NCBI RefSeq assembly: GCF_900102885.1
Contig: NZ_FNGE01000002.1
Coordinates: forward strand, 1-64,000
From: Paracoccus chinensis
Lineage (GTDB): Bacteria > Pseudomonadota > Alphaproteobacteria > Rhodobacterales > Rhodobacteraceae
Direction: 5' to 3'
DNA: 64,000 nt
This document shows, piece after piece, positions 1-39,457 of this stretch (position 1 is the first letter of the stretch; each line of letters begins with the position of its first letter). Under the pieces are notes generated by a model. It was given only the letters and a program-made list of their open reading frames with translations. It ran no database searches and was not told the origin of the DNA. Both the position numbers and the translations under genes were made by a program.

Positions 1-51
1 CATCACCTTGGACAACCTGTGGCGAAAGCCGCAACGCTGAGCGTTTCTTTC

Positions 52-174
52 CCGGTCTGGTGGCCATAGCACGAGCGAAACACCCGATCCCATCCCGAAC
101 TCGGCCGTTAAGCGCCGTCGCGCCAATGGTACTGCGTCTCAAGACGTGGGAGAGTAGGTCACCGCCAGACCTGG
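52..174 (+). rRNA. rrf: 5S ribosomal RNA
   Basis: The sequence has the 5S fold: the outer helix pairs CCGGTCTGG at the 5' end with CCAGACCTGG at the 3' end. The conserved CCCATCCCGAACTCGG loop and GGGAGAGTAGG segment lie between them. It is the last rRNA of an operon whose 16S and 23S genes lie upstream of the window. The exact ends are judged from the helix and may be off by one or two bases. Confidence 0.95.
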
Positions 175-261
175 AAAGAAACGCACATCTCTCTGAAACG
201 ATCGCACCACCCCCCGCACCCAAAAACCCGCGGGGAACCCGCTGCACAAACGCAGCACGGA

Positions 262-338
<77 letters not shown>

Positions 339-367
339 AACTCTTGCAATATATCCGCTACATGCGC

Positions 368-390
368 AGCGCCCCACGGGGCGCTTTCTG
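368..390 (+). terminator. rho-independent-like terminator of the rrn operon
   Basis: AGCGCCCC and GGGGCGCT form a perfect 8-bp stem (368-385) with a two-base loop, followed by a short T-containing run (TTTCTG). It lies 30 bp after tRNA-fMet, so it most likely ends the rRNA operon transcript. Confidence 0.7.
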
Positions 391-1164
391 CGTTCCGCAA
401 GCGTGTCAGCAAAGCACAGGCGGTGGATGGCAGGACATGGTGCAAAAATGAGGGTCCGATTGCGGTACTCTCGCACTGTGTTCTGGAGTGCAGCCTGGGG
501 CCGTGACATTACTCCACCGCGACGTCCCTCGGTTTGCCGTCGATTTTGCCTCACCACGCAGGCGCAGACGGCACGAGGGGAAGTCGCTGCACCAAACACA
601 GGTCCTCGGAATAATCGAGGGACAAAATCAACACATCGCCTTGACTGCATGCCGTCGGCGACGGCCCTGTGTGGGCCCCGGATCGGGCCCGGTCAGGTTC
701 TGCAAGCTTATTATGGCGGCATGAACCTCTCTCACGCCCGGCGGCTGAGGCACTCGAGGTTTGAGCCTGCGAAGGCACTGGCTCCAAAGAACAGGCGAAC
801 AGCGGCAACTTGAAACGGCTACTGGCCGACACGACGCTGCCAGCACGTACTAATGGACTCGTCGCGATCGAAGCCAATGGAAGCTACCGGTCCGAGAGCC
901 ATGGCTAAGGCATAACCATACAGAGCGTACGACGGACAGCGGTGCTTACGACGATGCGGGATCCTGATATAGGGCGTCCACTATGCAGCCAGGCCGGATC
1001 GACCGCGCTCTCTGCCCACGCAAGGCCCTGGGCAGCCCAAGAACATAGGCAGAGGGTCTGCTTAGCGCGGTTTGCGCCAGCTATGCGCCCTCGTCAGCCC
1101 CCTCAGTATCGGCAACTCTCTGGACAGGGCAAGGTCGACCGCAACCTTCAACAGGCCGACCCGA
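391..1164. other. gene-free, apparently decayed stretch
   Basis: I see no convincing gene in these 774 bases. The open frames are short, have no usable start signals and resemble no family I know. At about 808-852 one plus-strand frame reads NLKRLLADTTLPA, which resembles the C-terminal coiled coil of IS3-type OrfA transposases, but stops and frame changes surround it. This could be a worn insertion sequence remnant; the resemblance is weak. Confidence 0.3.
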
Positions 1165-3146
1165 TTATCCCAACTTCAGCAGGTTCCCGATCGCCGTGTG
1201 GACCTGCGCTGTGTCGAAGGGCTTGGCCAGGAGGGTCGCAGCCCGTGTCGGCAGTTCGTCAGCATCCGCGCGGAAACCCGAGATGAAGAGTACCGGCAGA
1301 TCATTGCGACGCTCGCGCAGCAATTCGCAAAGGCGAGGACCATTCAACTGCCCTGGCATCACGCAATCGGTGACCAGAAGATCGATACTCGCGGGATCCA
1401 GTGCCTCTGCCGCTGCGTCGGCGCTATCAAAGCTGGTGACTGCGCAGCCCAGCTCGCTGAGCATGCCGCAGGTGACATCGCGCAGCGCGTCGTTGTCCTC
1501 GACCACGGCCACGCGCAACCCGGTCAGGTCGACCGCGGCAGCATGCGGGGCGTCCTGGGCCAGTCCCGCGGGGTTCTGCATCGGCGGCAGGTAGAGATGT
1601 ACGGTCGTGCCCTCGCCCGGCGCGCTCTCGATCCGCAGCCCGCCCCCCGACTGGCGCAGGAAGCCATAGATCGAACTCAGCCCCAGCCCCGTGCCCTTGT
1701 CCGGCCCCTTGGTCGTGAAGAAGGGCTCCAGCGCGCGGGTCTGGGTTTCCGCGTCCATGCCCGTGCCGCTGTCGCTGACCGACAGGCGGAGGAAGGGCTG
1801 GGCCGGCAGGCCCGCCATCGCGGCCTCGTCCGTATCCAGTTCGACCAGCCGCGCCGTCACCGCCAGGCTGCCGCCGTCGGGCATCGCGTCGCGGGCGTTC
1901 ACCACCAGATTGACGATCGCTCCCTCGAACTGCGAGGCGTCGATCCACACCGGCGGCAGGTCCGCGGGGATGTCCAGCGTCGCGGTGACGGTCTCGCCCA
2001 GCACGCGTTCGAACAGCCCGCGCAGGCGATCCATCTCCGATGTCACGTCCAGTTCGCGAGGTTGCAGCTTCTGCCGGCGGGCAAAGCCCAACAGCCGCTT
2101 GGTCAAGTCGGCGCAGCTTTGCGCGGCCTGCAGCGCAAGCGCCAGCCGCCCGCGGCTGCGGTCGTCCAGCTCGGCGGTAGCCTGCACCCGGTCCAGCGAG
2201 CCGATGATGACGCCCAGCATGTTGTTGAAATCATGCGCGACCCCGCCCGAAAGCTGCCCGATCGCCTCGAGCTTCTGGGCATGGGTCAGCTGCTCCTCCA
2301 GCCGCTTGCGGCTGGTGATGTCGGTGACGACGCCGGAAATCATCAGCCCGTCCTCGCCCTCATCGCCGGCGCTGGCGCGTTCCATCATCCAGCGCTCGTC
2401 GCGGCCACACTGGATGCGGTATTCGATCTCGTAGCCTTGGGGCAGCGCGGCCAGCGCCGCCGCCAGCCGCGGCCGGTCGTCGAGATGGACGCGGTCCATC
2501 CAGTCGCCGATGACGAAATCGGGATCGTCCGCCGCCCCACAGAGCACCTGGACATTGCCACCAACGAAGCGGCGCGCCTCCTCGCCCGGCTCGATCACGA
2601 ACAGCGCCAGCGGCAGCGCGTCCAGCACCAGCGCCTGGGTCATCAGCGTGCGTTCCAGCTCGCGCGCGACCTCGGCCTCGCGGGCGCGGACGGCGAGGTT
2701 CTCGGCCATCAGCTGGCGCTCGGCCTCGGCCTTCAGCGCGATCTGGCGGCGCTGCTCGTAAAGCTGGGCGAAGACCTGCACCTTGGACCGCAGGATCAGC
2801 GGCTCGGCGGGCTTCAGGACGTAATCGACAGCGCCTGCGGCATAGCCCCGGAACTGGTGCGAGGTCTCCTTGTCGACGCCCGACAGGAAGATGATCGGCA
2901 CGTGGCGCGAGCGTTCGCGCTGGCGGATCAGCTCGGCGGTCTCGTAGCCGTCCATGCCGGGCATCCGGACGTCCAGCAGGATCACCGCGAATTCGTGGCG
3001 CAGCACGGCGCGCAGGGCCTCGGCCCCCGAAGACGCGGTGACGACCGGATGGCCGAGATCGGCCAGCACGGCCTGCGCCGCGACCAGGTTGGCCTCGTCG
3101 TCATCGACGACGAGGATCCGGGCCGGCGCGTCGGCCGCGGCGCCGC

Positions 3147-3150
<4 letters not shown>
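1165..3150 (-). CDS. hybrid sensor histidine kinase (receiver - PAS - kinase - receiver)
   Basis: This 661-residue cytoplasmic protein has no membrane segment. An N-terminal receiver (about 10-125) has acidic pair VVDDD and phosphoacceptor D60 in [12 protein letters not shown] coiled coil (about 130-175), a PAS-like segment (175-280), a HisKA domain with H306 in GGVAHDFNN and an ATPase domain with SGTGMD and KGTGLGL follow. A C-terminal receiver has D595 in [10 protein letters not shown]. The GTG start at 3150 overlaps the upstream kinase stop in GTGA, so the two are translationally coupled. An input receiver on a kinase suggests it is driven by phosphotransfer, perhaps from the upstream multi-HAMP kinase. 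The ligand and output are unknown. Confidence 0.9.
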
Positions 3151-8384
<5,234 letters not shown>

Positions 8385-28185: not shown

Positions 28186-28225
28186 GACAGCCCGGACAGG
28201 TCATGCCGCGAAGCAAGGAAAAAGA

Positions 28226-28247
28226 GCCGAGGCAGCGATGCCTCGGC
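28226..28247 (-). terminator. bidirectional terminator, probably the displaced tRNA-Arg terminator
   Basis: GCCGAGGCA and TGCCTCGGC form a 9-bp stem around GCGA, with T runs on both strands (CCTTTT on plus, CTCTTTTT on minus). Reading the minus strand, it lies just beyond the left 46-bp copy of the tRNA-Arg 3' end. Before the element inserted it would have followed the tRNA directly, so it is probably that gene's own terminator, now about 11 kb away. Confidence 0.7.
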
Positions 28248-28257
28248 CCTTTTGGAA

Positions 28258-28303
28258 ATGGCGGACCCGGAGCGATTCGAACGCCCGACCCCCAGATTCG
28301 TAG
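28258..28303. repeat. left attachment site (attL), 46-bp tRNA-Arg 3' copy
   Basis: These 46 bases are identical to 39380-39425, which include the 3' end of tRNA-Arg(ACG) up to the anticodon arm. After 28303 the match ends (C here, T in the tRNA). No 5' half of the tRNA lies beside it, so this is the displaced target end left by site-specific integration. Confidence 0.93.
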
Positions 28304-28388
28304 CCTGACCCACGGCTTTGAATCTAAAGGGAAAATCTCGCAACCGGCGCTGGATGGCGTAGTTTCGGATCAATGGGTTACGAAATCG

Positions 28389-28763
28389 GTGCAAACCGGC
28401 ACGGACCCCGAAAACGAAAACCCCGGCGCGCTGGCGGGCGCAACCGGGGTCAAACTGCATAGCAGTAGTGTCACCCACGAACATACTCTGAACCGCCTGC
28501 GGACTGCAAGCGCCCTGGCCTGTGCAGTCGCAGCCTGTGACCCGGACGACCGCGTTCCCTTCCTGGAGCGGCTGCTGGAGGAACTGCGCCCCGGCTGGCC
28601 GCAGGTGCCGTTCCTCTGCGGCGTGATGGAGGAAGCCGGGTTCTGGGCTGACATGGCGTCCCGCGTGGAGCTGAAAGCCTACTGCCTTGCCAGCTATCAG
28701 CGGATGACCCCGGCCGATCAGGCCGCGTTCCTCGGCTATGTGCAGGGGAGGGATGCGGCATGA
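28389..28763 (+). CDS. hypothetical protein, first gene of the element
   Basis: I do not recognise this protein. From the GTG at 28389 it has 124 residues: a polar N-terminal part, then a helical C-terminal part from about residue 30 (LNRLRTASALACAVAAC, FLERLLEELRPGWPQVPFL, ELKAYCLASYQRMTPADQAA). The frame stays open further upstream, but that part is translated tRNA repeat and is not real. The start is uncertain. Its stop overlaps the Toprim gene in ATGA, so it is coupled to the replication genes. Confidence 0.6.
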   Translation: MQTGTDPENENPGALAGATGVKLHSSSVTHEHTLNRLRTASALACAVAACDPDDRVPFLERLLEELRPGWPQVPFLCGVMEEAGFWADMASRVELKAYCLASYQRMTPADQAAFLGYVQGRDAA

Positions 28764-29647
28764 ACGCGCTTTACCCGGCCAGCCTAATAAATCCTGCACC
28801 GCGTCGTCGCGCCACCTCGGCCGAGATGGAGATCAGGGCGCGGTTTCTGATCGACTATGCCGAGGCGCACGGCCCGGTCACTGTCCGCCAGCTCTTCTAT
28901 CAGGCCACGGTCGCCGGGCTACCCGGCATCGAAAAGACCGAGGATGGATACAACAAGGTGCAGGCGCAGGTGCTGACCCTGCGGCGCGAGGGGCGGATGC
29001 CCTATCACTGCATCGCAGACGCCACCCGCTACATGCGGAAGCCGCAGACGTTCGACGGCTGGGAAGATGCGCTGCGCGACACCGCCCGGTTCTATCGGAA
29101 ATCGCTCTGGGCCGAGTCCACCGTGGATGTGGAAATCTGGTTGGAGAAATCGGCGCTGGCTGGCGTGATCTACCCGGTCACGTCCGAGTTCGACGTGCCG
29201 CTGATGCCGACCGGCGGCTTCACGTCCGAGACCTTCGCGCATGGGGCCGTCGAGAGCATGAGGGGCACCGGCAAGACGCTGGTGATCTATGCGCTCTATG
29301 ACTTCGACCGCAGCGGGCAGGACGCATCCGCCTCGCTGCAAGAGAAGGTCGAGCGGTTCGGCGCGGAATACGGCGTCCACGTGGACTTCTACCACCTGGG
29401 TCTGACCTGCGATCAGGTGAAGAACATGCGCCTGCCGACCCGCCCGGCCAAGCGCAACACCAAGGCCGATCAGCGTTGGCCCTACGAGTTCGCGGCCGAG
29501 CTGGACGCGATCCCGCCCGACGATCTGCGTGATCTGGTCCGCTGGGCTATCGAGCGGCACCTGCCCGCCGATGAGTTGGAGCGCCTGAAAGAGATCGAGG
29601 CCGCCGAACGCGACACGCTGATGAAGTTCATCGGGAGGGCCGCGTGA
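28760..29647 (+). CDS. Toprim-domain protein related to topoisomerase VI subunit A
   Basis: A 295-residue protein. The N-terminal part reads TVRQLFYQATVAGLPG, like the winged-helix region of TopoVIA/Spo11-type proteins. A Toprim domain follows, with the Glu motif in VEIWLEKSALAGVIYPV (about residue 130) and the acidic DxD-type motif in YALYDFDRSGQDAS (about 180). A conserved C-terminal piece is WPYEFAAELDAIPPDDLRDLV. Similar proteins occur in alphaproteobacterial prophages. It probably acts in replication or recombination of the element. The usual catalytic Tyr could be that of LFYQAT, but this is not certain. Confidence 0.75.
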   Translation: MNALYPASLINPAPRRRATSAEMEIRARFLIDYAEAHGPVTVRQLFYQATVAGLPGIEKTEDGYNKVQAQVLTLRREGRMPYHCIADATRYMRKPQTFDGWEDALRDTARFYRKSLWAESTVDVEIWLEKSALAGVIYPVTSEFDVPLMPTGGFTSETFAHGAVESMRGTGKTLVIYALYDFDRSGQDASASLQEKVERFGAEYGVHVDFYHLGLTCDQVKNMRLPTRPAKRNTKADQRWPYEFAAELDAIPPDDLRDLVRWAIERHLPADELERLKEIEAAERDTLMKFIGRAA

Positions 29648-31041
29648 TGGGGGCCTTCGAGATCATGGGCACTATGGACGCCCAGCACCGCGCGGAACGG
29701 GGCATTGATCCGGGCCGCCTGCTGACGGGCCGGGCAGCCGAACTGGCGGACGCGCTGATCCCCATGAACCGCGTCCGGCCGGTGCTGCGGTCCCGGCATC
29801 TGGTCAAGGGCTGGCTGGATCGCGGGGCCATGTCGGTTGTCTATGGCGAGTCCAACGTGGGCAAGACGTTCTTCGCGCTCGATCTGGCAGCGCACGTCGC
29901 GGCTGGGCTGGACTGGCACGGGCACCGCGTCCCCTCGGGCGAGAAATGGGCAGGCCCCGTTCTCTACATCGCCAGCGAGGGCGGAACCGGCATCCGCAAC
30001 CGCATGGAAGCCATGCGGCGCGAGAACCCCGATCTGGACGGCGACAAGCTGATCCTGCTGCCCGCCGGGCTGGACCTCTGCACGTCCGACGATAGCCAGT
30101 GGCTGGTCGAGACGATCCTGACCAAGCTGCCGCAGCGGCCGTCTCTGATCGTCGTGGACACGCTGGCCCGAGCGATGGGGAACGGCGACGAGAACACGGC
30201 CCAGGACATGGGCCAGTTCGTCCGCAGCATCGACCACCTGCGGGCCGAGACGGGCGCGCATGTCATGGTGATCCACCACAGCGGCAAGGACGCCAGCAAG
30301 GGCGCGCGCGGCTCTGGCAGCCTGCGAGCGGCGGCGGACACTGAGATCGAGCTGACCCGCAGCGACGACACAATCATGGCCGAGCAGCGCAAGCAGCGGG
30401 ACATGCCGTGCGATGGCGTGTTCGCCTACACGCTCAAATCGGTGTTCCTTGGACTGGACGATGAGGGGGACCGCGTTACCTCGGCCGTTGTAACGCCCGC
30501 CGAGGCGGTAACGCGCAAGAACAAGGTCCGCCTGACCGGCACCGACAAGATCGGGATGCAGGCGCTGTCCGATGCCCTGGCGCATCATGGCGAGGTCCGC
30601 CAAGGGGATATGTTCCCGCGTTCCCGGCAGTGCGTTTCCTTGGATCGCTGGCGCGAGTTCTGCGACCGACACAGCCTGTCGAGCGGCGAGGGCGATAGCA
30701 GCAAGCGCACCGCCTTCCATAAGCTCAAGAACCGCCTGCAAGATAAAGAGATCGTCCGCATCGTTGATGGCTTCGTCTGGAAGGTGGAGCCTGATGACAA
30801 GCGTTCCCACCGTTCCCAAACCGTTCCCGAGAACGCAGGGAACGTCGGTCATGCTGCCGTTCCCACCGTTCCCGCGCTCTATAAGAGCGGGAACGAGGGA
30901 ACGCTGACCCAGCCGGGCAAAGAGGTTGTCCCCGACCTAGGGGAAAACCCCGCACCTTCCACCGACACCACGCTTCCCCAAACAGGCGCGCGCATCCCGC
31001 TGCCTGACCCCGACACCTTCGACCCGGAGATGTGGCGATGA
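29647..31041 (+). CDS. RepA-like AAA ATPase/helicase
   Basis: A 464-residue protein with a RecA-fold ATPase domain (about 40-260). Walker A is VYGESNVGKTFF, Walker B is SLIVVDTLARAMG, and VMVIHHSGKDASKGARGSGSL is the conserved sensor/arginine segment of RepA-type hexameric helicases. A C-terminal region of about 200 residues is variable. ATG 29647 overlaps the previous stop (TGATG); GTG 29644 is possible. With the Toprim gene it forms the element's likely replication module, comparable to the primase-helicase of other satellites. Confidence 0.82.
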   Translation: MGAFEIMGTMDAQHRAERGIDPGRLLTGRAAELADALIPMNRVRPVLRSRHLVKGWLDRGAMSVVYGESNVGKTFFALDLAAHVAAGLDWHGHRVPSGEKWAGPVLYIASEGGTGIRNRMEAMRRENPDLDGDKLILLPAGLDLCTSDDSQWLVETILTKLPQRPSLIVVDTLARAMGNGDENTAQDMGQFVRSIDHLRAETGAHVMVIHHSGKDASKGARGSGSLRAAADTEIELTRSDDTIMAEQRKQRDMPCDGVFAYTLKSVFLGLDDEGDRVTSAVVTPAEAVTRKNKVRLTGTDKIGMQALSDALAHHGEVRQGDMFPRSRQCVSLDRWREFCDRHSLSSGEGDSSKRTAFHKLKNRLQDKEIVRIVDGFVWKVEPDDKRSHRSQTVPENAGNVGHAAVPTVPALYKSGNEGTLTQPGKEVVPDLGENPAPSTDTTLPQTGARIPLPDPDTFDPEMWR

Positions 31042-31322
31042 CCCCTTCCCCCGTGCCCCTGACCGACGCCAAGGAATATCTGCGTGTGGGCGCCGATGAT
31101 GATGATCTGCTGATCCAGCGTCTGCTGGACGCGGCGGGGCAGGAGCTTGCCCACTACATCGGCCCCGACATGCCCACGGGCGATCTGCCCGACGACCTGC
31201 AACTGGCCGTGCTGGAGCAGGCAGCGTGGCACTATGACAACCGGGGCAGCGTGGACGTGAAGCCCGGCCTTGTGCCTGCGGCTGCCCGCATTGCGGCGCG
31301 CTACAAGCGAGTGCGGCTGTGA
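31038..31322 (+). CDS. head-tail connector protein (gp6-like)
   Basis: A 94-residue protein with the helical plan of HK97 gp6/YqbG-type adaptors: [36 protein letters not shown] and LQLAVLEQAAWHYDNRG. Such proteins form a ring under the portal and receive the tail. Its place before the terminase is unusual. The ATG at 31038 overlaps the helicase stop, and its own stop overlaps the terminase GTG. If this is a satellite, this ring is the likely docking face for a helper's tail. Confidence 0.75.
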   Translation: MTPSPVPLTDAKEYLRVGADDDDLLIQRLLDAAGQELAHYIGPDMPTGDLPDDLQLAVLEQAAWHYDNRGSVDVKPGLVPAAARIAARYKRVRL

Positions 31323-33001
31323 CCGAGGCGAAGCGCCCGAGAGGACGACCGCGCAAGGATGGTCTGCCCGCAGGGTCGCCAGAGGCGCGAGCGGCCGACC
31401 TGCGGTCTGGTCCCAATGGGCAGACTTCCGCGAAACAGGGATACCGGCGTCCACCTGTTCTTTTCCCTCTCCCGAAAAAATCCGGGGAGGAATTGGCCGA
31501 TCAGGCGATTGCCTTCCTTGAGACGCTGACCGTTCCCGAGGGTCCGAAGGCGGGCGAGCCTCTGCAACTGGCCGAGTTCCAGCGCAGGTTTGTGCGGGGC
31601 GCCCTGGCTGACGGCGTGATGGTCGCCTGCCTGTCGATCGGGCGCGGCAACGCCAAGACGGCCCTATCAGCGGGCCTCGCTCTGGGCAGCCTCATGGGCG
31701 TCTGGGACGACCAGCCCAAGCGGGAAATCCTGTTCGCCGCGCGGAACCGCGATCAGGCCAAGACCGCCTTTCAGTTCGTGACCGGCTTTATCGAGGGGCT
31801 GCCCGAGGATGAGCGCGAGCAGTTCATCATCCGGCGCGGGTCCAAGCTGGAAGTCGAGTATCCCGGCAATGGCGGCGGGCTGATCCGCGTCATCCCTGCC
31901 GATGGCAAGTCGATCCTGGGCGGCGCCCCGACGCTGGCGCTGATGGACGAGCGGGCGGCTTGGGAGCGCGAGAAGGGCGACAACCTGGAGAATGCCATCC
32001 TGTCGGGTCTCGGCAAGCGCGACGGCCGGGCGCTCATCATCAGCACGTCCGCACCTGACGACGCCAACACGTTCTCGCGCTGGCTGGACGATCCGCCCCC
32101 CGGCACGTTCGTGCAGGAACACCGGCCCCCCTTCGGGCTGCCTGCCGATGATCTGCCGTCGCTGCTGGAAGCCAACGCCGGCGCGGTCGAGGGCATCGGC
32201 GCATCCCTGGACTGGCTGGTGGCGCAGGCAAAGCGGGCGATTGCGCGCGGCGGATCGGCGCTGTCGTCGTTTCGGAACCTTAACAGGAACGAGCGTGTTT
32301 CCACCGAGGATCGCTCGGTTCTCGTCACAGTTGACGAATGGCTCGCCGGAGAAGTCTCGCCGGGCGATCTACCCCCCCGCGACGGTCCCTGCATCCTGGG
32401 CGTGGACCTGGGCGGCTCGCGGTCCATGTCCGCAGCGGCGTTCTACTGGCCCCAGACGGGCCGCCTGGAGGCTCTGGGCACCTTCCCCGGCAACCCCAGC
32501 CTTGCGGATCGTGGCGCGGCTGACGGCGTGTCTGACCGCTACACCCAGATGCAGGAACGCGGCGAGCTGACGGTGATGGGCGAGGCCACGGTGCCGCCCG
32601 GTCCCTGGCTGGCCGAGATCGTCCGCAAGCTGGACGGCATCACCCCGGCCTGTATCGCGGGCGACCGCTTCCGCCATGCCGAGTTCACCGAGGCGATGGA
32701 CAAGGCGGGCCTGCGTGTCCCGTTCATCTACCGGGGCTTTGGCTGGAAGGACGGCAGCGAGGACATAGAGCGGTTTCGCCGGGCGCTGTTTGACGGCGAG
32801 GTGAAGGGCGTTCCATCCCTGCTGCTGCGGTCGGCGTTCTCGGATGCCATCGTTCTCAATGATCCGGCTGGCAACGCCAAGCTGGCGAAAGCCCGAAGCC
32901 TCGGGCGCATCGACGCGGCGGCGGCAACGGTGCTGGCGGTGGCGCAGGGCCAGCGGATGCTGGCGGCCCCCACCCGGAAAGCGAGGGTGGCATGGGCGTG
33001 A
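31319..33001 (+). CDS. terL: terminase large subunit
   Basis: A 560-residue HK97-type TerL that pumps DNA into the head and cuts it. The basic N-terminus RPRGRPRKDG may bind DNA. The ATPase has Walker A-like SIGRGNAKTALSAG (about residue 105), Walker B LALMDERAAW (about 205) and a coupling segment IISTSAP. The nuclease begins with GVDLGGSRSM (about 360), an RNase-H-type acidic strand. No separate small terminase gene is recognised. The GTG at 31319 overlaps the connector stop. Confidence 0.92.
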   Translation: MTEAKRPRGRPRKDGLPAGSPEARAADLRSGPNGQTSAKQGYRRPPVLFPLPKKSGEELADQAIAFLETLTVPEGPKAGEPLQLAEFQRRFVRGALADGVMVACLSIGRGNAKTALSAGLALGSLMGVWDDQPKREILFAARNRDQAKTAFQFVTGFIEGLPEDEREQFIIRRGSKLEVEYPGNGGGLIRVIPADGKSILGGAPTLALMDERAAWEREKGDNLENAILSGLGKRDGRALIISTSAPDDANTFSRWLDDPPPGTFVQEHRPPFGLPADDLPSLLEANAGAVEGIGASLDWLVAQAKRAIARGGSALSSFRNLNRNERVSTEDRSVLVTVDEWLAGEVSPGDLPPRDGPCILGVDLGGSRSMSAAAFYWPQTGRLEALGTFPGNPSLADRGAADGVSDRYTQMQERGELTVMGEATVPPGPWLAEIVRKLDGITPACIAGDRFRHAEFTEAMDKAGLRVPFIYRGFGWKDGSEDIERFRRALFDGEVKGVPSLLLRSAFSDAIVLNDPAGNAKLAKARSLGRIDAAAATVLAVAQGQRMLAAPTRKARVAWA

Positions 33002-33339
33002 GGGACTACACCCGCCACTCCAAGCGCATCACGCGCGGCCCGCGCTGGCACACGCTGCGGATGGCCGTGCTGGAACGCGACGGCTTCAAATGCGTGGACT
33101 GCGGCAAGAGCCGGGGCCGCCTGGAGTGCGATCACGTCATCCCGGTCCGGCTGCGGCCTGATCTGGCCTACGCCCCCGAAAATTGCGCCATGCGGTGTCC
33201 TTCGTGTCACTCGGCAAAAACCCGGATCGAGGTCGGGAACCCCCCGCCTTCGTATGACCGCCACGGCTGGCGGAAGGCTGTCAACGAACTGACGGCCGAC
33301 AACAAACCCCTATCGAGCAAAGAGGAAACACATGCTTGA
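32992..33339 (+). CDS. HNH endonuclease
   Basis: A 115-residue nuclease with zinc-binding CVDCGK and CPSCHSAKT around the catalytic LECDHVIPVRL (DH) and PENCAMRC (N). HNH proteins next to TerL are needed for cos-end cutting in HK97-like phages, so this packaging set probably uses a cos mechanism. It overlaps terL by 10 bp and the capsid gene by 8 bp. Confidence 0.9.
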   Translation: MGVRDYTRHSKRITRGPRWHTLRMAVLERDGFKCVDCGKSRGRLECDHVIPVRLRPDLAYAPENCAMRCPSCHSAKTRIEVGNPPPSYDRHGWRKAVNELTADNKPLSSKEETHA

Positions 33340-34582
33340 TTCTGTCCGACTGCAACGGCGGCAGTCTGAAATCCGCCAAACCCTGTCGTCGCTGGTCGGC
33401 AAGTCCGATGCCAGCGAGGATGAAATCCGCCAGATGGAAACTCTCGACGGCGAGTATCGCCAGAACGAGATCAAGTATCGCGCGGCGCTGACAGCCGAGG
33501 ATACCGAGCGGCGCGAGGCCGGGGCCGATCTGGAAACTCGCGCCGGGCGGCAGTGGGATGATCTGGTCGCGGGCTTCGAGCTGCGCCAGATCGTCGCCGC
33601 GCTGGAGGAAGGCCGCGCCCTGTCGGGCCAGACGGCCGAGATCGTTTCCGAGATGCGGAGCCACGGCGGTTATCGGGGCATCCCCGTGCCGCTGGCGGCG
33701 CTGGAGCAGCGCGAGCTGGTCGCAGGCACCACGACGAGCGCGGACGTGCCCAAGCCCGTCACGATCCGCCCGCTGATCGACCGCATCTTCCCCGCGTCCG
33801 TCGCGTCCCGCCTGGGCGGCGAGGTCATCAACATCACCTCGGGCGCAGTCGCCATTCCCGTCGCCACGGCGGGCGCGGTGGCAGGCTGGGCACCGACCGA
33901 GGGCGCGAACGTCCCCGGTCCGCAAGCCTTCGACTTCGCGGAACGGATGCTGGAGCCGGACCACACACTTGGCGTCCATATGCGGATCACCCGCAAGGCG
34001 CTCAAGCAGGCGGGCGACGGGCTGGAAGCGGCGATCCGGCGCGACATGAACGCGGCCGTGCAGACCGAGCTGGACCGGGCGATCCTGATGGGCAGCGGGG
34101 CCAATGGCGAGCCTCTGGGCATCATCACCGGCGCGGCCGACTACGGCATCACCGAGACGGCCGTGGGGGCTGCGGCAAGCTGGGCGGCGTTCCGGCAGGC
34201 GGCGGTGGCCTTCATGGACGGCAACCTGGTCAAGTCGCCGGGCGACATCCGCATGGGCTTCAACCCCGAAATCTGGGCGGACCTGGACGACGCCCTGATC
34301 AGCGGCACGGCCGTGTCGCAGTGGGACCGGCTGGTGAAGCACGTTCCCGCCGGGCAGATCGCCCTGGCCCCGACGCTGCCCGAGGGCACGGCGGTGCTGA
34401 CGACGAACACGGGCGGGATTGCCCCGTTCTATGTCGGGATCTGGGGCGGGCTGGACCTGATCCGCGATCCGTTCTCGGACGCGCAATCGGGCACCCTGCG
34501 TCTGACGGCGCTGATGACGGCGGACGTGACCGTGGCGCGCGGGTCGCAACTTGCGATCCTCTCGGGCATCGGGGCACCCTGA
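33332..34582 (+). CDS. HK97-fold major capsid protein
   Basis: A 416-residue capsid protein. Residues about 1-110 are charged and helical (MLDSVRLQRRQSEIRQ onward), like the HK97 delta scaffold that the protease removes. The coat fold follows with RPLIDRIFPASVASRLGG, AIPVATAGAVAGWAPTEG and DLDDALISGTAV. It has a good ribosome site (GAGGAAA). The protease gene follows it directly, the reverse of the common portal-protease-capsid order. Confidence 0.92.
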   Translation: MLDSVRLQRRQSEIRQTLSSLVGKSDASEDEIRQMETLDGEYRQNEIKYRAALTAEDTERREAGADLETRAGRQWDDLVAGFELRQIVAALEEGRALSGQTAEIVSEMRSHGGYRGIPVPLAALEQRELVAGTTTSADVPKPVTIRPLIDRIFPASVASRLGGEVINITSGAVAIPVATAGAVAGWAPTEGANVPGPQAFDFAERMLEPDHTLGVHMRITRKALKQAGDGLEAAIRRDMNAAVQTELDRAILMGSGANGEPLGIITGAADYGITETAVGAAASWAAFRQAAVAFMDGNLVKSPGDIRMGFNPEIWADLDDALISGTAVSQWDRLVKHVPAGQIALAPTLPEGTAVLTTNTGGIAPFYVGIWGGLDLIRDPFSDAQSGTLRLTALMTADVTVARGSQLAILSGIGAP

Positions 34583-35136
34583 TGCTCTGGGGCGGTCACA
34601 ACGGCAGCCTGGAGCTGCGAGCCGAGGGCGGGACCACCCGCCTTCGCGCCACGTTCCCTTATGGGGCCGAGGCGGAAATCGCGCCGGGGCGGTTCGAGCG
34701 GATCGCCCCCCGCGCCTTCGCCGCCCGGATCGAGGCGGGCGAGGATATTCACCTGCTGGCGGGCCACAGCTACGACCGGCCGCTGGCGTCCCGTTCTGCG
34801 GGCAATCTGCGGCTGACCGATGGGGATGATGCCCTGACCGTGGAAGCCGAGATCGAGGAAGGCACCACCTGGGCGCGGGACTTCCTGGCGGCTTATCGGG
34901 CGGGCCTGATAAAAGGGCTGTCCCCGGGCTTTCGTGTTCCGCGTGGCGGCGAGCGGATCGAGCAACGGGCCAGCGGCATCCTGCGGACGATCACGGCGGC
35001 CGAGCTGTTCGAGGTCTCGACCGTCACCCGGCCCGCCTATTCCCAAGCGCAGATCGAGGCGCGGGCATGGGAAACGCATCAGGACCGCCAGCCGGTTCGC
35101 GTCCCCGTCTATGCGCTCAACCGATGGAGGGCATGA
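34582..35136 (+). CDS. HK97-family prohead protease
   Basis: A 184-residue protease of the HK97 gp4 (U35) family. Visible are LLAGHSYDRPLASRSAGNL with the likely catalytic His, LIKGLSPGFRVPRGG with the likely Ser, and the conserved end ELFEVSTVTRPAYSQAQIEAR. It would cut the capsid N-terminus during head maturation. The ATG overlaps the capsid stop (TGATG). Confidence 0.9.
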   Translation: MLWGGHNGSLELRAEGGTTRLRATFPYGAEAEIAPGRFERIAPRAFAARIEAGEDIHLLAGHSYDRPLASRSAGNLRLTDGDDALTVEAEIEEGTTWARDFLAAYRAGLIKGLSPGFRVPRGGERIEQRASGILRTITAAELFEVSTVTRPAYSQAQIEARAWETHQDRQPVRVPVYALNRWRA

Positions 35137-35137
35137 C

Positions 35138-36202
35138 ATGGGGCTGATGGACCTGTTCCGACGCAAGCAACCCACAGAGACCCGCGCGGTTGCGTCCGGC
35201 TTCACGGCCGACCTGATCGCGGCGCGGGCGGAATGGCTGTCCGGCCGGTCGAACACGGCCGAGCTGACGGCGACCGTGCAAGGCTGTGTGAGCCTCTGGG
35301 AAAGCGGCTTCACCCTGGCGGACGTGGCGGGCACCGACATGCTCGACCGGCGGACGCTGGCGATGCTGGCGCGGTCCCTGGCCCTGCGCGGCGAGGCGAT
35401 GTTCCTGATCCGGGACAAGCTGTTGCCCGTCACCGATTGGGACGTGAAAACCCTGCATGGCGAGCCGCGCGCCTATCGCGTGAGCGTGTCGGAGATCGGC
35501 GGCGGCACCTCGGAGACGGTGCTGGCGGGCGAGGTCTTGCACGTCCGCATCGGATCGTCCCCGGTGACGCCCTGGGCCGGGACCGCACCCCTTCACCGGG
35601 CGAGCCTGTCGGCCGAGCTGCTGCAAGAGGTCGAGACGGCCTTGCGCGATGTTTATCGGGACGCGCCCTTGGGCAGTTTGATCGTTCCGCTGCCGGAAGG
35701 ATCGGCCGAGGACATGGCCGCGATGCGGTCCGCCTTCCGGGGCAGGCGCGGGGCCACCCTGGTCATCGAGGGCGTGGCGCAACAGGTCGCCGCAGGGATG
35801 CACCCGCAGCTTGGCCAGCGCCCCGAGGGCCTGACCCCGGACTTGCAGAAGGCCATGACGGCCGAGACGCTGCAAGCCGCCCGTGGCGCGGTCCTGATGG
35901 CCTATGGCGTCCTGCCCGCCCTGCTGAACCCGGCCACCACCGGGCCGCTGGTGCGAGAGGCGCAGCGGCACCTGGCGCAACTGGTCCTGCAACCGATCGC
36001 CATGCTGGTCGCGGACGAGGCGACGGCCAAGTTGGGCAGCGAGGTCAAGCTGGACGTGGTGCGGCCGATGCAAGCTTTCGACCACGGCGGCAAGGCGCGG
36101 GCGTTCGGCGCGATGCTGCAAGCCTATGCCACGGCGAAGGAGGCCGGGCTGGACGGCACCACCCTGCAAGACGCGCTGCAATTCGTAGACTGGCAGGAAT
36201 GA
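35138..36202 (+). CDS. phage portal protein
   Basis: A 354-residue HK97-type portal, which forms the DNA entry ring at one capsid vertex. Typical parts are MGLMDLFRRKQ at the start, LARSLALRGEAMFLI, the GEVLHVRIGSSPVTPWAGTA loop, and ARGAVLMAYGVLPALLNPATTGPL, followed by a long helix. The ATG at 35138 follows GGAGG. It is shorter than many portals (about 400), mainly at the C-terminus. It is the last gene of the structural run; no tail gene follows. Confidence 0.9.
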   Translation: MGLMDLFRRKQPTETRAVASGFTADLIAARAEWLSGRSNTAELTATVQGCVSLWESGFTLADVAGTDMLDRRTLAMLARSLALRGEAMFLIRDKLLPVTDWDVKTLHGEPRAYRVSVSEIGGGTSETVLAGEVLHVRIGSSPVTPWAGTAPLHRASLSAELLQEVETALRDVYRDAPLGSLIVPLPEGSAEDMAAMRSAFRGRRGATLVIEGVAQQVAAGMHPQLGQRPEGLTPDLQKAMTAETLQAARGAVLMAYGVLPALLNPATTGPLVREAQRHLAQLVLQPIAMLVADEATAKLGSEVKLDVVRPMQAFDHGGKARAFGAMLQAYATAKEAGLDGTTLQDALQFVDWQE

Positions 36203-36434
36203 CGAGCTAGGGCCGGGATGCGCCCTGCGGAGTTGTTCACCGCGAAGCATCTGGGATCAGACGGTGAGTGCCCGGCCCTTGGGAGCCACAACCCCGTCAC
36301 GGCGCGGTCGGACCCTTCATCTGGCGCGGCGCAGGCTGGCACGGCGCGAACCGGGGCCATCCGCAGCGCGTGTAAGCGCATCGCCCGCGTCTGGGCAGGG
36401 GCCGATTGCAGCGAGATGTTGCGTCGGCCCCGAT
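36203..36434. other. gene-free junction after the portal gene
   Basis: Between the portal stop and the minus-strand regulator I see no convincing gene. One 77-codon plus frame (36218-36451) has no family resemblance and would run into the regulator. In a tailed phage the tail module would begin here. The stretch might hold the cos/packaging signal or a terminator, but no clear hairpin with T-run is seen. Confidence 0.4.
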
Positions 36435-36815
36435 CTATTCCTGGGGCTTAGTGAACCGAACGTTCATTGTCTCGATGGCTTTCAATCGCTCAATCAACTG
36501 TTCTTCGATTTCTTGAACGCGATCCTCGCGCCTCTTCAGGCTCTCAAAGGCAGCACTGACCGCTTCGCTCATCTTGATGGTCTCTTCCCGCATGAGGCGG
36601 ATTTCGTCCTTTTCCCCGTGGGCAACGGCGTTCTCGATGAAGGCAACAGGATCGCCGAACTTCTCGGCTTCGTTTGCCAGCTTCTGAACCCCGAGAAGGA
36701 TGCCGACGATATGCTGCGACAGGCTGCGCCGTGCTTCGGCAGCGCCAGCCTCAAGGTCAGCCTTCAAGCTGGCCGGCAGCATCAACTTGAACTGAACAAG
36801 ACGATCTTCATCCAT
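36435..36815 (-). CDS. Arc-like ribbon-helix-helix regulator with coiled coil
   Basis: A 126-residue protein from the ATG at 36815 (ATG 36824 possible). The N-terminal VQFKLMLPASLKADLEAGAA begins an Arc/MetJ-type ribbon-helix-helix: a DNA-contacting beta strand and two helices (to about residue 45, RRSLSQHIVGIL). From about 55 on it is a long charged coiled coil, likely for assembly. It is divergent from a second RHH gene with a similar strand (PIQFKLILP). Three operator-like palindromes lie between. It is probably the element's repressor or its antagonist. Confidence 0.8.
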   Translation of the reverse strand: MDEDRLVQFKLMLPASLKADLEAGAAEARRSLSQHIVGILLGVQKLANEAEKFGDPVAFIENAVAHGEKDEIRLMREETIKMSEAVSAAFESLKRREDRVQEIEEQLIERLKAIETMNVRFTKPQE

Positions 36816-36826
36816 GCCGAACATAT

Positions 36827-36887
36827 GGACAAGATTTGTCCTTGACGCCACGGACATTTGTTGTCCATATGGGGACAAGATTTGTCC
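36827..36887. promoter_or_regulatory. three operator palindromes between divergent Arc-like genes
   Basis: GGACAAGATTTGTCC occurs twice (36827-36841 and 36873-36887). A variant, GGACATTTGTTGTCC, lies between them (36852-36866). Each is a palindrome with half-site GGACAA/TTGTCC; the centres are 25 and 21 bp apart. They fill the space between the two divergent RHH genes, so they are the probable binding sites of one or both proteins and cover both promoters. Confidence 0.75.
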
Positions 36888-36898
36888 GTGAGGCGACT

Positions 36899-37048
36899 AT
36901 GAAGCCGATCCAGTTCAAATTGATCCTTCCTCCCGATGTGAAGGCGTGGATCGAGGCGCAAGCCGCCAAGAACCTGCGTTCGCAAAGCGCGGAGATCGTC
37001 GTCTGCCTGCGCGAGCGCATGGATCGCGAAGCTCAACCCCAGACCTAA
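36899..37048 (+). CDS. small Arc-like ribbon-helix-helix protein
   Basis: A 49-residue protein that is little more than one RHH domain: strand PIQFKLILP, helix DVKAWIEAQAAKN, turn, helix SQSAEIVVCLRERMD. It is about the size of P22 Arc. The ATG at 36899 follows GAGG and lies 11 bp after the last operator; the frame extends upstream through the operators, which is not credible. It shares its strand sequence with the divergent regulator, so both may bind the same sites. Confidence 0.82.
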   Translation: MKPIQFKLILPPDVKAWIEAQAAKNLRSQSAEIVVCLRERMDREAQPQT

Positions 37049-37061
37049 GAGGAACATCCCA

Positions 37062-37286
37062 ATGGAAACGAACCAACGCGCTCGCGCGAACAGCGCCCGC
37101 TTGCCAGCCGTTCTGACGCAATCCGAGTGGGACGAACTGCACGACGCCCTGGAGTTGGCGCTGGACGCCTTGGGCGACGGCCCGGCGGACGTGGACATGC
37201 TCTATCTGGTTAACTGCATGATCCATCAGCGTGTCGCTCTGCGGCTGACCCACCTCAAGGCCCGCGCCAACGGGAGGCCCTGCTGA
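37062..37286 (+). CDS. hypothetical protein
   Basis: A 74-residue protein I do not recognise. It is mostly helical and acidic (SEWDELHDALELALDALGDG), with a second helix NCMIHQRVALRLTHLKA. It has a good ribosome site (AGAGGAA) and follows the small RHH gene by 13 bp. Its stop overlaps the next start (TGATG). Its position in the early rightward operon suggests a control or early function. Confidence 0.65.
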   Translation: METNQRARANSARLPAVLTQSEWDELHDALELALDALGDGPADVDMLYLVNCMIHQRVALRLTHLKARANGRPC

Positions 37287-37480
37287 TGGCAACGGTTGCA
37301 GACGTGCAGCACCGCGCCGTGCTGCTGGCCGACATGATCAAGGTTGTCGATCACCTGATGACCGAATCTGACGCGCCAAAGAGCATCAGGGACTTGAGCG
37401 TGTCGCTGATCATGGCCGCCCGCGACATGGCAGGCGAGCTAGTGAACGAGATCGACCGGCTGCCGAGGACTGCGCCCTGA
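37286..37480 (+). CDS. hypothetical protein
   Basis: A 64-residue helical protein of unknown function (VQHRAVLLADMIKVVDHLM, IRDLSVSLIMAARDMAGEL). It starts within the stop of the preceding gene, so it is translationally coupled to it. There is no motif to name. Confidence 0.6.
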   Translation: MATVADVQHRAVLLADMIKVVDHLMTESDAPKSIRDLSVSLIMAARDMAGELVNEIDRLPRTAP

Positions 37481-37493
37481 TCGGGGCATAAAG

Positions 37494-37540
37494 ACCTATT
37501 GCTTTATCAATCGGTCACGCTTATTGTTGTTTCAATAGGT
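37494..37540. promoter_or_regulatory. inverted repeat upstream of the MerR-like gene
   Basis: ACCTATTG (37494-37501) and CAATAGGT (37533-37540) form a perfect 8-bp inverted repeat, 40 bp before the regulator's ATG. The AT-rich stretch between them is unusual for this genome. It is a plausible promoter with operator for the regulator, perhaps autoregulated. Confidence 0.5.
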
Positions 37541-37579
37541 AGGGCGAACGGCTCTGACCGACGCACAGGAGCAATTAAC

Positions 37580-38047
37580 ATGACGCGGATCAAGGTATCC
37601 AGCACAGTCGCGGCGCAGATCGCGGGCATCAACAAGCAGCGGTTCAACGAGGCCGTCGCTGCGGGTTTCTACGAGTGCGCGCCCCGCACCGCCCCAGGAA
37701 AAACGCGCATGTTCGACGTGAACGACGTGCTGGCGCTGAACGTCTATCGCCACCTCACGGAAGAAGGCGTTATCCCCGCGAAGGCGGGGCCGATGACTTG
37801 CGAGCTGCTTCACCTGCTGCGCGCCTATCCCGGCCATGACCGCTGGTTGCAGGTCAAGGATGGCTTCGGCCGCACGACCTGGATTCCTGCCGACCAGTTT
37901 TCCGCCAACTCCGAGTTCATCAGCGGCGTCAACATTGTTTCGACCCGCGACTGGCGGATCGGGGACATGCTCCCTCGCATCATCCACGAGATGGAAGAAG
38001 CCTTCTACAGCGTCCAGCACCCGGACGACCGGACCGACGAGGACTGA
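37580..38047 (+). CDS. MerR/AlpA-like DNA-binding regulator
   Basis: A 155-residue protein. The N-terminus has a winged-helix plan of the MerR/excisionase type (VAAQIAGINKQRFNEAVAAG, then wing RTAPGKTRMFDVNDVLALNVYRHL). The C-terminal part is unknown. Such proteins act in satellites and phages as activators (AlpA) or excisionases. It lies upstream of the integrase, on the same strand. The ATG at 37580 is preferred over a TTG at 37499, which would include the inverted repeat. Confidence 0.7.
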   Translation: MTRIKVSSTVAAQIAGINKQRFNEAVAAGFYECAPRTAPGKTRMFDVNDVLALNVYRHLTEEGVIPAKAGPMTCELLHLLRAYPGHDRWLQVKDGFGRTTWIPADQFSANSEFISGVNIVSTRDWRIGDMLPRIIHEMEEAFYSVQHPDDRTDED

Positions 38048-38050
38048 TCC

Positions 38051-38233
38051 ATGACCCGAGCCGCCACGGTTCCCAACGTCCGCAAGATGGTCAAGCTCGT
38101 TCAGGAGATGGGCTTGACTGTCGCGGGCGTGGACGTGTTCCCGGATGGCGGCTTCCGTGTCCTGACCGCGCAAGAAAAGCAGGACGCGGCCGATGCGGCG
38201 CTGGACGGCTGGTTGAGGTCGCGAAATGGTTAA
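38051..38233 (+). CDS. small hypothetical protein upstream of the integrase
   Basis: A 60-residue protein: a helical N-terminus (VRKMVKLVQEMGLTVAG), a short strand pair (VDVFPDGGFRVL) and a helix. It overlaps the integrase gene by 8 bp. Its size and place would suit an excisionase-like or co-expressed factor, but no motif proves that. Confidence 0.6.
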   Translation: MTRAATVPNVRKMVKLVQEMGLTVAGVDVFPDGGFRVLTAQEKQDAADAALDGWLRSRNG

Positions 38234-39374
38234 GGCGAAGATCAAGGGTGTGAACACTGTCCGCAAGCGCCTCGCTGACGGCACGGTGCGAGCCTACTAC
38301 TATCACCGCGCGACCGGCGCGGCGCTGCCGGGGAAGCCCGGCGATCCTGCGTTCCTGGCTGCGATGGTCGAGGCCGAGAAGATCGCGCCGAAGGACGTTG
38401 GCAACGTCAATGCCCTGATCCGTGATTACCTGCTGTCCCTGACCTTCGAGAAGAAGGCCGCCAGCACCCAGCGCGAATACAAGCGGATGCTGACCGAGCT
38501 GGAGGTGAAGTTCGGCAAGCTGCCGATTCGGGCGCTGGAAAGCCCCCGCGTCCGGGGCGTGTTCCTGGACTATCAGGAAGAGATCGGCCGGGACCGCCCG
38601 CGCGAGGCCGACAACCGGCTGTCGGTGCTGTCCGCCGTGTTCAGCTACGCCGCGCGCAAAGGGCGTATCAAGGACAACCCGCTGGCCGGGTTCGAGCGCA
38701 TCTATTCCGGCGACCGATCCGAGATGATCTGGACCGCCAACGATATCGCCGCGTTCATGGCCGCCGCGCCGCTGGAAATGCAACAGGCGATGATCTTGGC
38801 GCTGCACACGGGCCAGCGATACGGCGACCTGATCCGCCTGCGCTGGTCGGACTTCCGGGGCGAGACGATCAGCCTCAAGCAGAACAAGACCAAGGCCCGC
38901 GTGACGATCCATGTGTCGCAGGCTCTGGCGCGGATGCTGGACGGTATGGACCGGCGCGGACCCTACATCCTGACCCGCGACGATGGGCGGCCCTGGTTTA
39001 CCGAGGGCAACGACAAGGAACTGGGAAAGCAGTGGTCGGCGCACATGATCGCCTGCGGCTTACGCCCGGAAGGCTATGCCGAGCTGTCCAAGGCCCGGAA
39101 GGCCGAGCATCTGCGCTTCAATGATCTGCGGGGGACGGCGGTCACGCTGCTGTCAGAGGCCGGAAATGGCATCCCGCAAATCTGCGCGGTGACAGGGCAC
39201 ACGCTGCAATCCGCGACCCGTATCCTGGAGAAATATCTGGCGATGACACCGGCCTTGTCGAAGGCCGCGATTCTCGCCTTCGAGAACAGCCCGGCAACTG
39301 CTTTTGCAAACCGGCTGCAAACCGGCCCCCAAGGGGCCGACCACCTGCACCTTAAAGCACAAGGAGATCAATAG
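38226..39374 (+). CDS. int: tyrosine recombinase (integrase)
   Basis: A 382-residue integrase. An arm-binding N-terminal part leads to the SAM-like core-binding domain (about 75-165). The catalytic domain has Arg in LHTGQRYGDLIRLRW, a Lys near NKTKARVTI, FNDLRGTAVTLL with Asn where His is usual, VTGHTLQS and the nucleophile Tyr in ILEKYLAMT. It ends 5 bp before the right repeat, the normal place for an integrase that targets the adjacent tRNA-Arg. It should catalyse integration and, with a helper, excision. Confidence 0.94.
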   Translation: MVKAKIKGVNTVRKRLADGTVRAYYYHRATGAALPGKPGDPAFLAAMVEAEKIAPKDVGNVNALIRDYLLSLTFEKKAASTQREYKRMLTELEVKFGKLPIRALESPRVRGVFLDYQEEIGRDRPREADNRLSVLSAVFSYAARKGRIKDNPLAGFERIYSGDRSEMIWTANDIAAFMAAAPLEMQQAMILALHTGQRYGDLIRLRWSDFRGETISLKQNKTKARVTIHVSQALARMLDGMDRRGPYILTRDDGRPWFTEGNDKELGKQWSAHMIACGLRPEGYAELSKARKAEHLRFNDLRGTAVTLLSEAGNGIPQICAVTGHTLQSATRILEKYLAMTPALSKAAILAFENSPATAFANRLQTGPQGADHLHLKAQGDQ

Positions 39375-39379
39375 GATGG

Positions 39380-39425
39380 ATGGCGGACCCGGAGCGATTC
39401 GAACGCCCGACCCCCAGATTCGTAG
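39380..39425. repeat. right attachment site (attR) inside tRNA-Arg
   Basis: These 46 bases equal 28258-28303. They cover the CCA end, acceptor 3' strand, T arm and the anticodon arm's 3' side of tRNA-Arg, so insertion keeps the tRNA whole. The crossover must lie somewhere within the shared 46 bp. Confidence 0.93.
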
Positions 39426-39457
39426 TCTGGTGCTCTATCCAGCTGAGCTACGGGTCC
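39381..39457 (-). tRNA. tRNA-Arg (ACG)
   Basis: A 77-nt cloverleaf with encoded CCA: acceptor GGACCCG/CGGGTCC, anticodon arm CCAGACTACGAATCTGG with anticodon ACG, T arm GGGCGTTCGAATCGCTC. It is the integration target of the element. Reading leftward it now runs straight into the antisense strand of the integrase, since its terminator was displaced to 28226-28247. Confidence 0.97.

Follow-up and report, generated by a model that had tools for sequence, protein, structure and literature searches.

A candidate head-making, tail-borrowing phage satellite integrated at a tRNA-Arg gene of Paracoccus chinensis

What kind of element carries a full set of phage head and packaging genes and no recognisable tail gene? 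Such an element lies at positions 28258-39425 of the stretch analyzed here (the window: all 64,000 nucleotides of Paracoccus chinensis contig NZ_FNGE01000002.1, positions 1 to 64,000), integrated at a tRNA-Arg gene. It is very probably an integrated phage satellite, which makes its own head and borrows the tail of a tailed phage. It is not a decayed prophage. The element has defined boundaries and recurs as a 10-kb unit in other genomes, its genes are under purifying selection, and no tail gene was found in it.

We scanned the 16 gene products of the element with Pfam, PHROGs and NCBIfam. Family profile matches bore out the original prediction of a full HK97-type head and packaging set (connector, large terminase subunit or TerL, HNH, capsid, protease, portal). 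The regulators and the replication module described there were also recovered, and no gene is broken: all reading frames are uninterrupted, with only weak matches for the Arc/ribbon-helix-helix (RHH) pair. The features, in their left-to-right order and with the attachment (att) copies that bound them, are:

28258..28303, no strand: left (distal) att copy, 46-bp perfect direct repeat
28470..28763, plus strand: orf1, small protein, predicted all-helical (start assumed)
28760..29647, plus strand: topoisomerase-like replication protein (phrog_6247, 3.9e-41)
29644..31041, plus strand: RepA-like AAA ATPase, AAA_25 (PF13481, 1e-40; PHROG primase/helicase families)
31032..31322, plus strand: head-tail adaptor of the gp6/Ad1 type (PF05135, 5e-11; phrog_40, 1e-18; TIGR01560)
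31319..33001, plus strand: TerL (phrog_9, 5.9e-55; PF03354)
32992..33339, plus strand: HNH endonuclease (PF01844, 4e-9; phrog_144)
33332..34582, plus strand: HK97-type major capsid protein (PF05065, 8e-15; TIGR01554)
34582..35136, plus strand: prohead protease, S78 (PF04586, 1.1e-24; TIGR01543)
35138..36202, plus strand: portal protein (PF04860, 1.9e-12; phrog_12)
36435..36878, minus strand: divergent Arc/RHH-like regulator (weak PHROG matches; start uncertain, placed at 36824 by the gene caller)
36836..37048, plus strand: RHH/Arc-like regulator (weak PHROG/Pfam matches)
37062..37286, plus strand: small protein without convincing family match
37286..37480, plus strand: small protein without convincing family match
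37580..38047, plus strand: possible MerR-like regulator (weak: PF13411, E 0.045; protein cluster c21, 8 loci)
38051..38233, plus strand: small protein without family match
38226..39374, plus strand: tyrosine integrase (phrog_1, 8.1e-40; PF00589)
39380..39425, no strand: right att copy inside the tRNA-Arg gene, 46-bp perfect direct repeat
39381..39457, minus strand: tRNA-Arg(acg), integration target, intact (ARAGORN)

The HNH endonuclease is probably part of the packaging machine. None of the 16 products convincingly matched a tail, lysis or small terminase subunit (TerS) family, and no lysis or host-recognition gene was recognised among them. The absence of tail and lysis genes noted in the original prediction thus stands; its list of missing genes was incomplete, as a recognisable TerS is missing too. 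AlpA had no match in the window, where the regulators are RHH-like and weakly MerR-like, and Pri-Rep was not found there, the replication proteins being the topoisomerase-like protein and the AAA_25 ATPase. The open reading frame (ORF) originally placed at 28203-28763 cannot begin before the att site, and a start near 28470 is assumed instead.

The predicted 11.2-kb extent and perfect 46-bp ends are confirmed by the two att copies, which lie 11,122 bp apart and are identical over 46 of 46 bp (49 of 50 when extended to 50 bp). The right copy forms the 3' part of the minus-strand tRNA-Arg(acg), and the integrase, intact as predicted, adjoins it. In order to find the empty site, we searched 61 genomes of the same genus and inspected 29 loci. 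In 28 of these a single att copy lies beside a conserved kinase gene (1.5-kb flank); the 29th has no copy. In loci L244 and L249 the end of the left flank (28215-28252, terminator-like by eye) is also matched over 37-38 bp (84-87%), 5-7 bp from the att copy, as in the window. The empty integration site is therefore known, from the single copies in 28 of the 29 loci together with the flank matches in L244 and L249. In L151 (Paracoccus sp. 2205BS29-5) a different element occupies the same tRNA.

The element belongs to a recurrent family. A TerL at 46% or more occurs in 31 of the 295 genomes of the host family, the own genome included (four only in pieces), and six more have one only at 27-33%; the own genome contains a second TerL, 61% identical to that of the window. 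Scans of GTDB genomes and of IMG/VR confirmed 207 and 106 TerL relatives, respectively, and 80 of each were kept for analysis. Among the IMG/VR contigs kept, 77 of 80 measure 15 kb or less, and the first relative is identical to the window element in TerL and gene content. The 80 GTDB loci include 20 records titled Paracoccus; judged by the names in the titles, most hosts are Rhodobacterales, with 11 of Hyphomicrobiales type and 5 of Sphingomonadales type. Across the class such elements are rare: besides the own genome, one of 288 genomes gave a strong match and two gave weak ones. No small free plasmid of the family was found in PLSDB, where a 1.58-Mb replicon matched at 77% and the 19 other records fell under 60%, the listed ones reaching 35% at most.

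To bound the relatives we used exact repeats of tRNA sequence of at least 14 bp that span the cassette, some of the shorter of which may be chance matches. Such pairs were present in 48 of the 80 GTDB loci (36 of them at least 18 bp long), as well as for the window and for 17 of the 22 other family loci with a tRNA. The window element, 16 of these 17 (L136, without a labelled portal, was omitted) and 43 of the 48 (the other five are genomes seen twice) make up 60 bounded elements. All but four measure 9-12 kb (56 of 60; median 10,564 bp), the others being 6.6, 8.5, 16.2 and 17.6 kb. Their targets include tRNAs for Asn, Cys, Lys, Phe, Arg, Glu, Ser, Thr, His, Leu, Met, Ala and Gln, some on short repeats only. 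Each of the 56 gave profile matches to TerL, HNH, capsid, protease, portal and integrase, and the order TerL-HNH-capsid-protease-portal holds in the relatives wherever contigs and labels suffice. HNH was often missed by the gene caller and recovered by profile. The original prediction had named the same tail-less layout at tRNA genes elsewhere as its check, and as the contrary outcome 35-45-kb tailed prophages as closest relatives, with the compact layout in no other genome; we found the former, mostly at 9-12 kb and at many tRNAs, and not the latter.

The head genes are under purifying selection. For close pairs (85-98.5% protein identity, dS 0.05-1.5), which are not independent of one another, the median dN/dS was 0.108 for TerL (174 pairs used; the first 200 of 875 were tried), 0.146 for the capsid (197 pairs), 0.131 for the protease (135), 0.114 for the portal (111), 0.174 for HNH (83), 0.204 for the adaptor (22) and 0.101 for the integrase (20). 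Between the window element and its relatives, values range from 0.09 to 0.29.

We also assessed whether tail genes are present in the family. A PHROG scan of the non-core ORFs covered 114 of 192 viral clusters (the longest; the L107 protein discussed below was scanned separately) and gave the 25 commonest of 90 matched families. Rare matches may be hidden there, so the tail test rests on a second search, in which 54 tail queries (from HK97, the gene transfer agent (GTA)-like cluster of the host, two siphophage prophages, phage CRP-811 and L107) were compared with 1,879 ORFs from the 60 bounded elements and 80 viral contigs. Only the L107 tape measure and one capsid, at an E of 8e-4 (chance level), were matched. 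As a positive control, the same queries matched 72 of 247 ORFs in seven tailed-prophage stretches, and 59 ORFs were still matched without the 12 queries drawn from one of these stretches. The room beyond recognised genes has a median of 3.3 kb and a maximum of 6.4 kb (56 elements), which looks too small for a tail module. The original observation that the element has no recognisable tail, lysis or tape-measure gene and little room for one agrees with the window scans, the query search and the measured room.

Proteins of the neck, where a tail would dock, are kept. A gp6-type adaptor was recognised in 26 of 56 elements, the head-closure protein Hc1 (PHROG) in 25, and one or the other in 42; the window element has the adaptor without Hc1. 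A further protein, c10, is present in 29 of the 56, where its gene separates those for protease and portal; no element has both c10 and the adaptor. It lacks a family match and has a weak adaptor likeness (hhalign probability 46%, E 2e-4). Because these neck proteins are kept though no tail is encoded, the heads presumably receive a tail, and the 42 of 56 elements are the best argument that sequence offers for this.

The choice of DNA for packaging is less evident. Six TerS or pre-TerL queries had no match at E<=0.01 in the 56 elements, although a divergent TerS is possible. Candidates for choosing the DNA in its place are HNH, an N-terminal extension of TerL, or a small protein. As hidden TerS, orf1 and the small protein c9 were considered and rejected, their predicted models having no PDB match at E<=0.001. 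Homologues of orf1 occur in 24 of 56 bounded elements (AlphaFold model: mean pLDDT 87, pTM 0.47).

Induction, packaging and tail borrowing are steps that we infer from this anatomy and from the precedent of the capsid-forming phage-inducible chromosomal islands (cf-PICIs). On induction, the element would be excised from the tRNA-Arg gene by its own integrase and replicated by its topoisomerase-like protein and RepA-like ATPase. An HK97-type procapsid would assemble on the element's portal, and the element's TerL, probably assisted by the HNH nuclease, would fill it without a recognisable TerS. Its adaptor would then cap the portal, and a helper tail would dock via this adaptor (plus Hc1 of its own or of the helper). 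A tailed phage in the same cell would supply the head-closure protein, the tail and lysis, so that particles would leave by helper lysis.

Possible tail donors exist in the own genome, which contains the GTA-like head-tail cluster (G000:C42:98038-112668) and a prophage of siphophage type that encodes tail proteins (some genes were named by eye). At least 43 of the 295 host-family genomes (counted by eye) have a tailed prophage whose GTA-type hub reaches 62% identity or more. Tailed prophages whose hubs are 53-54% identical to the host GTA hub, and whose heads are unmatched by the satellite profiles, were also seen in G643 (three prophages), G655, G671 and G295 (contig C8).

Several observations weigh against a satellite that borrows tails. 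No particle, excision or helper has been seen. The common tailed-prophage type with a GTA-type hub is not enriched among satellite carriers (3 of 31 versus 4.5 expected, among the matches listed), and we rejected it as the resident helper. Shared DNA was likewise discarded as a sign of a helper: six satellites, compared with the tested prophages and the GTA region, including those of the same genomes, share no DNA above 18 bp, the same as a host control stretch. No TerS that would account for packaging specificity was found, and a search by sequence could miss divergent small tail proteins. One relative, L107 (9,878 bp, permuted gene order), does encode a 569-aa tape-measure protein (2846-4555; phrog_1716, 8.5e-38), in frame directly behind the portal gene. 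A pattern-based scan of the viral contigs for its close relatives found only itself. Tape-measure genes are reported in other head-coding satellites (PMC10448857). For the E. coli cf-PICI EcCIEDL933 the helper is reported not to be necessarily resident, as the 17 prophages of its strain gave no detectable mobilisation of it (PMC11389934).

The tails could also come from the GTA of the host rather than from a phage, which would make the satellites parasites of the GTA. Of the 80 loci, 42 were compared, and 39 of these carriers have a GTA-type hub match at E<=1e-30 (three short and weak); some genomes have such prophage hubs as well. This co-occurrence says little because the hubs are very common in the host family (a related prophage hub, used as the query, matched 218 of 295 genomes at E<=1e-300), and three of the 42 carriers lack a hub at the threshold. 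Many relatives have a long adaptor that is nearest to the adaptor of the GTA (74 bits versus 10 for HK97 gp6); the GTA adaptor is the best match of 68 of 70 long adaptors, with 28-30% identity in the top pairs. However, the adaptor panel is small, and an adaptor match of similar quality comes from a tailed Labrenzia phage (35.6%, covering 54% of the query). The GTA as the donor is not supported, and we consider it very unlikely.

Some relatives may live as free DNA. Three contigs of genome assemblies (L156, 10,206 bp; L173, 10,234 bp; L212, 10,436 bp) have ends that overlap by 56-144 bp, as from circular DNA, and so do two IMG/VR contigs, L097 and L102; all five measure 10.1-10.4 kb. None of them has a gene in the integrase clusters, and they share the small proteins c56 and/or c57, RHH-like by eye. 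The contig of L212, from Gemmobacter serpentinus HB-1, is labeled NODE_42_length_10340_cov_941. We read the five as plasmid-living members, although packaged, permuted DNA could also give such ends. Circular-looking relatives without integrase that hold the head cassette in about 10 kb would also fit a tail-less virus, or a capsid-based plasmid, that is autonomous and enters cells without a helper. This is extremely unlikely: the neck proteins recognised in 42 of 56 elements, with an adaptor dN/dS of 0.20 (median), make most sense with a tail attached, and the scans of the window element recognised neither a lysis nor a host-recognition gene. A broader proposal, which we hold only tentatively, extends the satellite interpretation: the family may be a separate head-making lineage specialised on Alphaproteobacteria, with TerS-free packaging, split into an integrating and a plasmid-living, integrase-less branch (L097, L102, L156, L173 and L212), with L107 carrying its own tape measure. 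If so, the L107 tape measure may dictate the length of the borrowed tail.

The head genes are only distantly related to those of known phages. The closest TerL of the phage collection shares 29.6% identity, and the best capsid match 27%. Of the 29 rows in our TerL tree, 16 are satellites, reduced from 184, and 13 are others. The satellites form one group with a support of 100/100; L142 and L143, with a similar layout without labeled HNH, are their sisters, and the HK97-type phages and the E. coli element fall outside. The outer joins are unsure because long branches meet there and the E. coli row is very long. In a small profile panel, TerL was nearest HK97, the capsid nearest CRP-811 and the protease nearest the E. 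coli element, which suggests a mixed origin of the head and packaging genes. The inspected tailed relatives with HK97-like TerL have the order TerL-portal-protease-capsid-neck, whereas the satellites have capsid-protease-portal, that is, a reversed head-gene order. The competing idea of the original prediction, a larger prophage decaying after the loss of its tail genes, has the HK97-type head genes, the distant kinship to HK97-type TerL and the state of the own genome's second copy (contig C54, beside a transposase-like ORF, by eye, at a contig end, with no integrase labeled in the first 20 kb) in its favour, but it has next to no chance of being correct. It is largely refuted by the same compact layout in many genomes and at many tRNAs and by intact frames with dN/dS of about 0.1-0.2; perfect att ends and a head-gene order that runs the other way in the tailed relatives also speak against it.

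Other loci deserve mention. The second copy on contig C54 of the own genome (G000; L139, 1-6400) is a satellite of another subtype, with TerL (61%), HNH, capsid, protease, c10 and portal; it adjoins the transposase-like ORF at the contig start, near a tRNA-Tyr, and no integrase is labeled in the 20 kb read. Six relatives (L132, L133, L134, L137, L170 and L214) are not at a tRNA and adjoin the same two or three host genes, phosphoglycerate dehydrogenase- and phosphoserine aminotransferase-like; four of them (L132, L133, L170 and L214) have an integrase of a different cluster, c39. On the 21-kb contig of L106, a second, different head-gene set (1-8000, by eye) and an integrase lie beside the satellite, possibly as tandem satellites. 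L140 and L141, with TerL at 32-33%, have compact maps (TerL, capsid, small gene, protease, gene of about 400 aa; integrase in L140) and are perhaps a further tail-less family. As for defence cargo, eight window proteins gave no PADLOC match, and a 726-aa protein of a relative gave one weak BrxC-like match (E 2e-4).

How does the element compare with known systems? It fits a satellite in the wide sense, being a small integrative element with phage functions that are incomplete for particles. It differs from an intact siphophage prophage, as there is no tail module beside the head genes, and from a GTA, as integrase and att sites are present and a tail was not found. cf-PICIs bring their own capsid, protease, portal, connectors, HNH and terminase (both subunits) and acquire tails from elsewhere (PMC10690885); their signature genes also include AlpA and Pri-Rep (PMC10448857). 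The window element shares with them its own capsid, protease and portal, a head-tail connector, TerL with HNH and the lack of tail genes. As far as sequence tells, it lacks TerS, AlpA and Pri-Rep, and because these were not found we do not file it as a strict cf-PICI. The original label of cf-PICI-like is thus right for the head, connector, TerL, HNH and missing tail, and does not extend to these three genes. Among the relatives, a D5-type primase was seen in L087, and one protein of cluster c17 reaches AlpA only below the AlpA cut-off. A capsid-forming, tail-borrowing satellite that works like a cf-PICI is the best reading.

As a yardstick we used prophage Sp7 of E. coli O157 Sakai, which we take to be of the EcCIEDL933 type. 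Like the satellites, it has its own capsid, protease, portal, adaptor, HNH, TerL and integrase, no annotated tail and the order capsid-protease-portal, and 137 of the 138 family proteases find their best panel match in its protease (at up to 35% identity). Unlike them, it has a TerL outside their clade, a size of 15.5 kb versus about 10.6 kb, and the cassette order capsid-protease-portal-adaptor-...-TerS-TerL, where the satellites have adaptor-TerL-HNH-capsid-protease-portal. cf-PICIs average 14 kb (PMC10803314). The Streptomyces satellites MulchRoom and MiniFlayer also carry head and packaging genes, but they have TerS, direct terminal repeats and Actinomycetota hosts and lack key replication genes, which the window element has (PMC10690885).

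Among tailed phages, HK97, Rhizobium phage RHph_X2_25, a Pusillimonas phage-plasmid and a Sphingomonas prophage have HK97-type heads and TerL about 27-30% identical, and in the last three HNH lies near TerL, as in the satellites. HK97-type siphophages differ in the order TerL-portal-protease-capsid, with the small subunit or a small gene before TerL and with neck and tail genes following where the stretch reaches. Roseobacter phage CRP-811, the best capsid match by score (27%), is a 32.6-kb tailed phage with TerS. GTAs of the RcGTA type share the HK97-type head, and their adaptor is 28-30% identical to that of the long-adaptor relatives, whereas the host's GTA-like cluster includes tail genes, showed neither integrase nor att, and has a capsid and portal only weakly similar to those of the satellites.

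Our literature search found no description of such elements in Alphaproteobacteria; genome-wide satellite surveys may have listed them earlier. The main cf-PICI hosts listed in PMC10803314 do not include Alphaproteobacteria, and cf-PICIs are called widely distributed across Bacteria (PMC10690885). The present family adds a large, separate group of self-packaging satellites in Alphaproteobacteria, and a search relying on signature genes such as AlpA, Pri-Rep and TerS would overlook it. In Paracoccus and Rhodobacter, it makes tail borrowing, packaging without TerS and the selection of neck proteins testable. The comparison also suggests that at least two TerL lineages, both with the order capsid-protease-portal, follow the head-only lifestyle.

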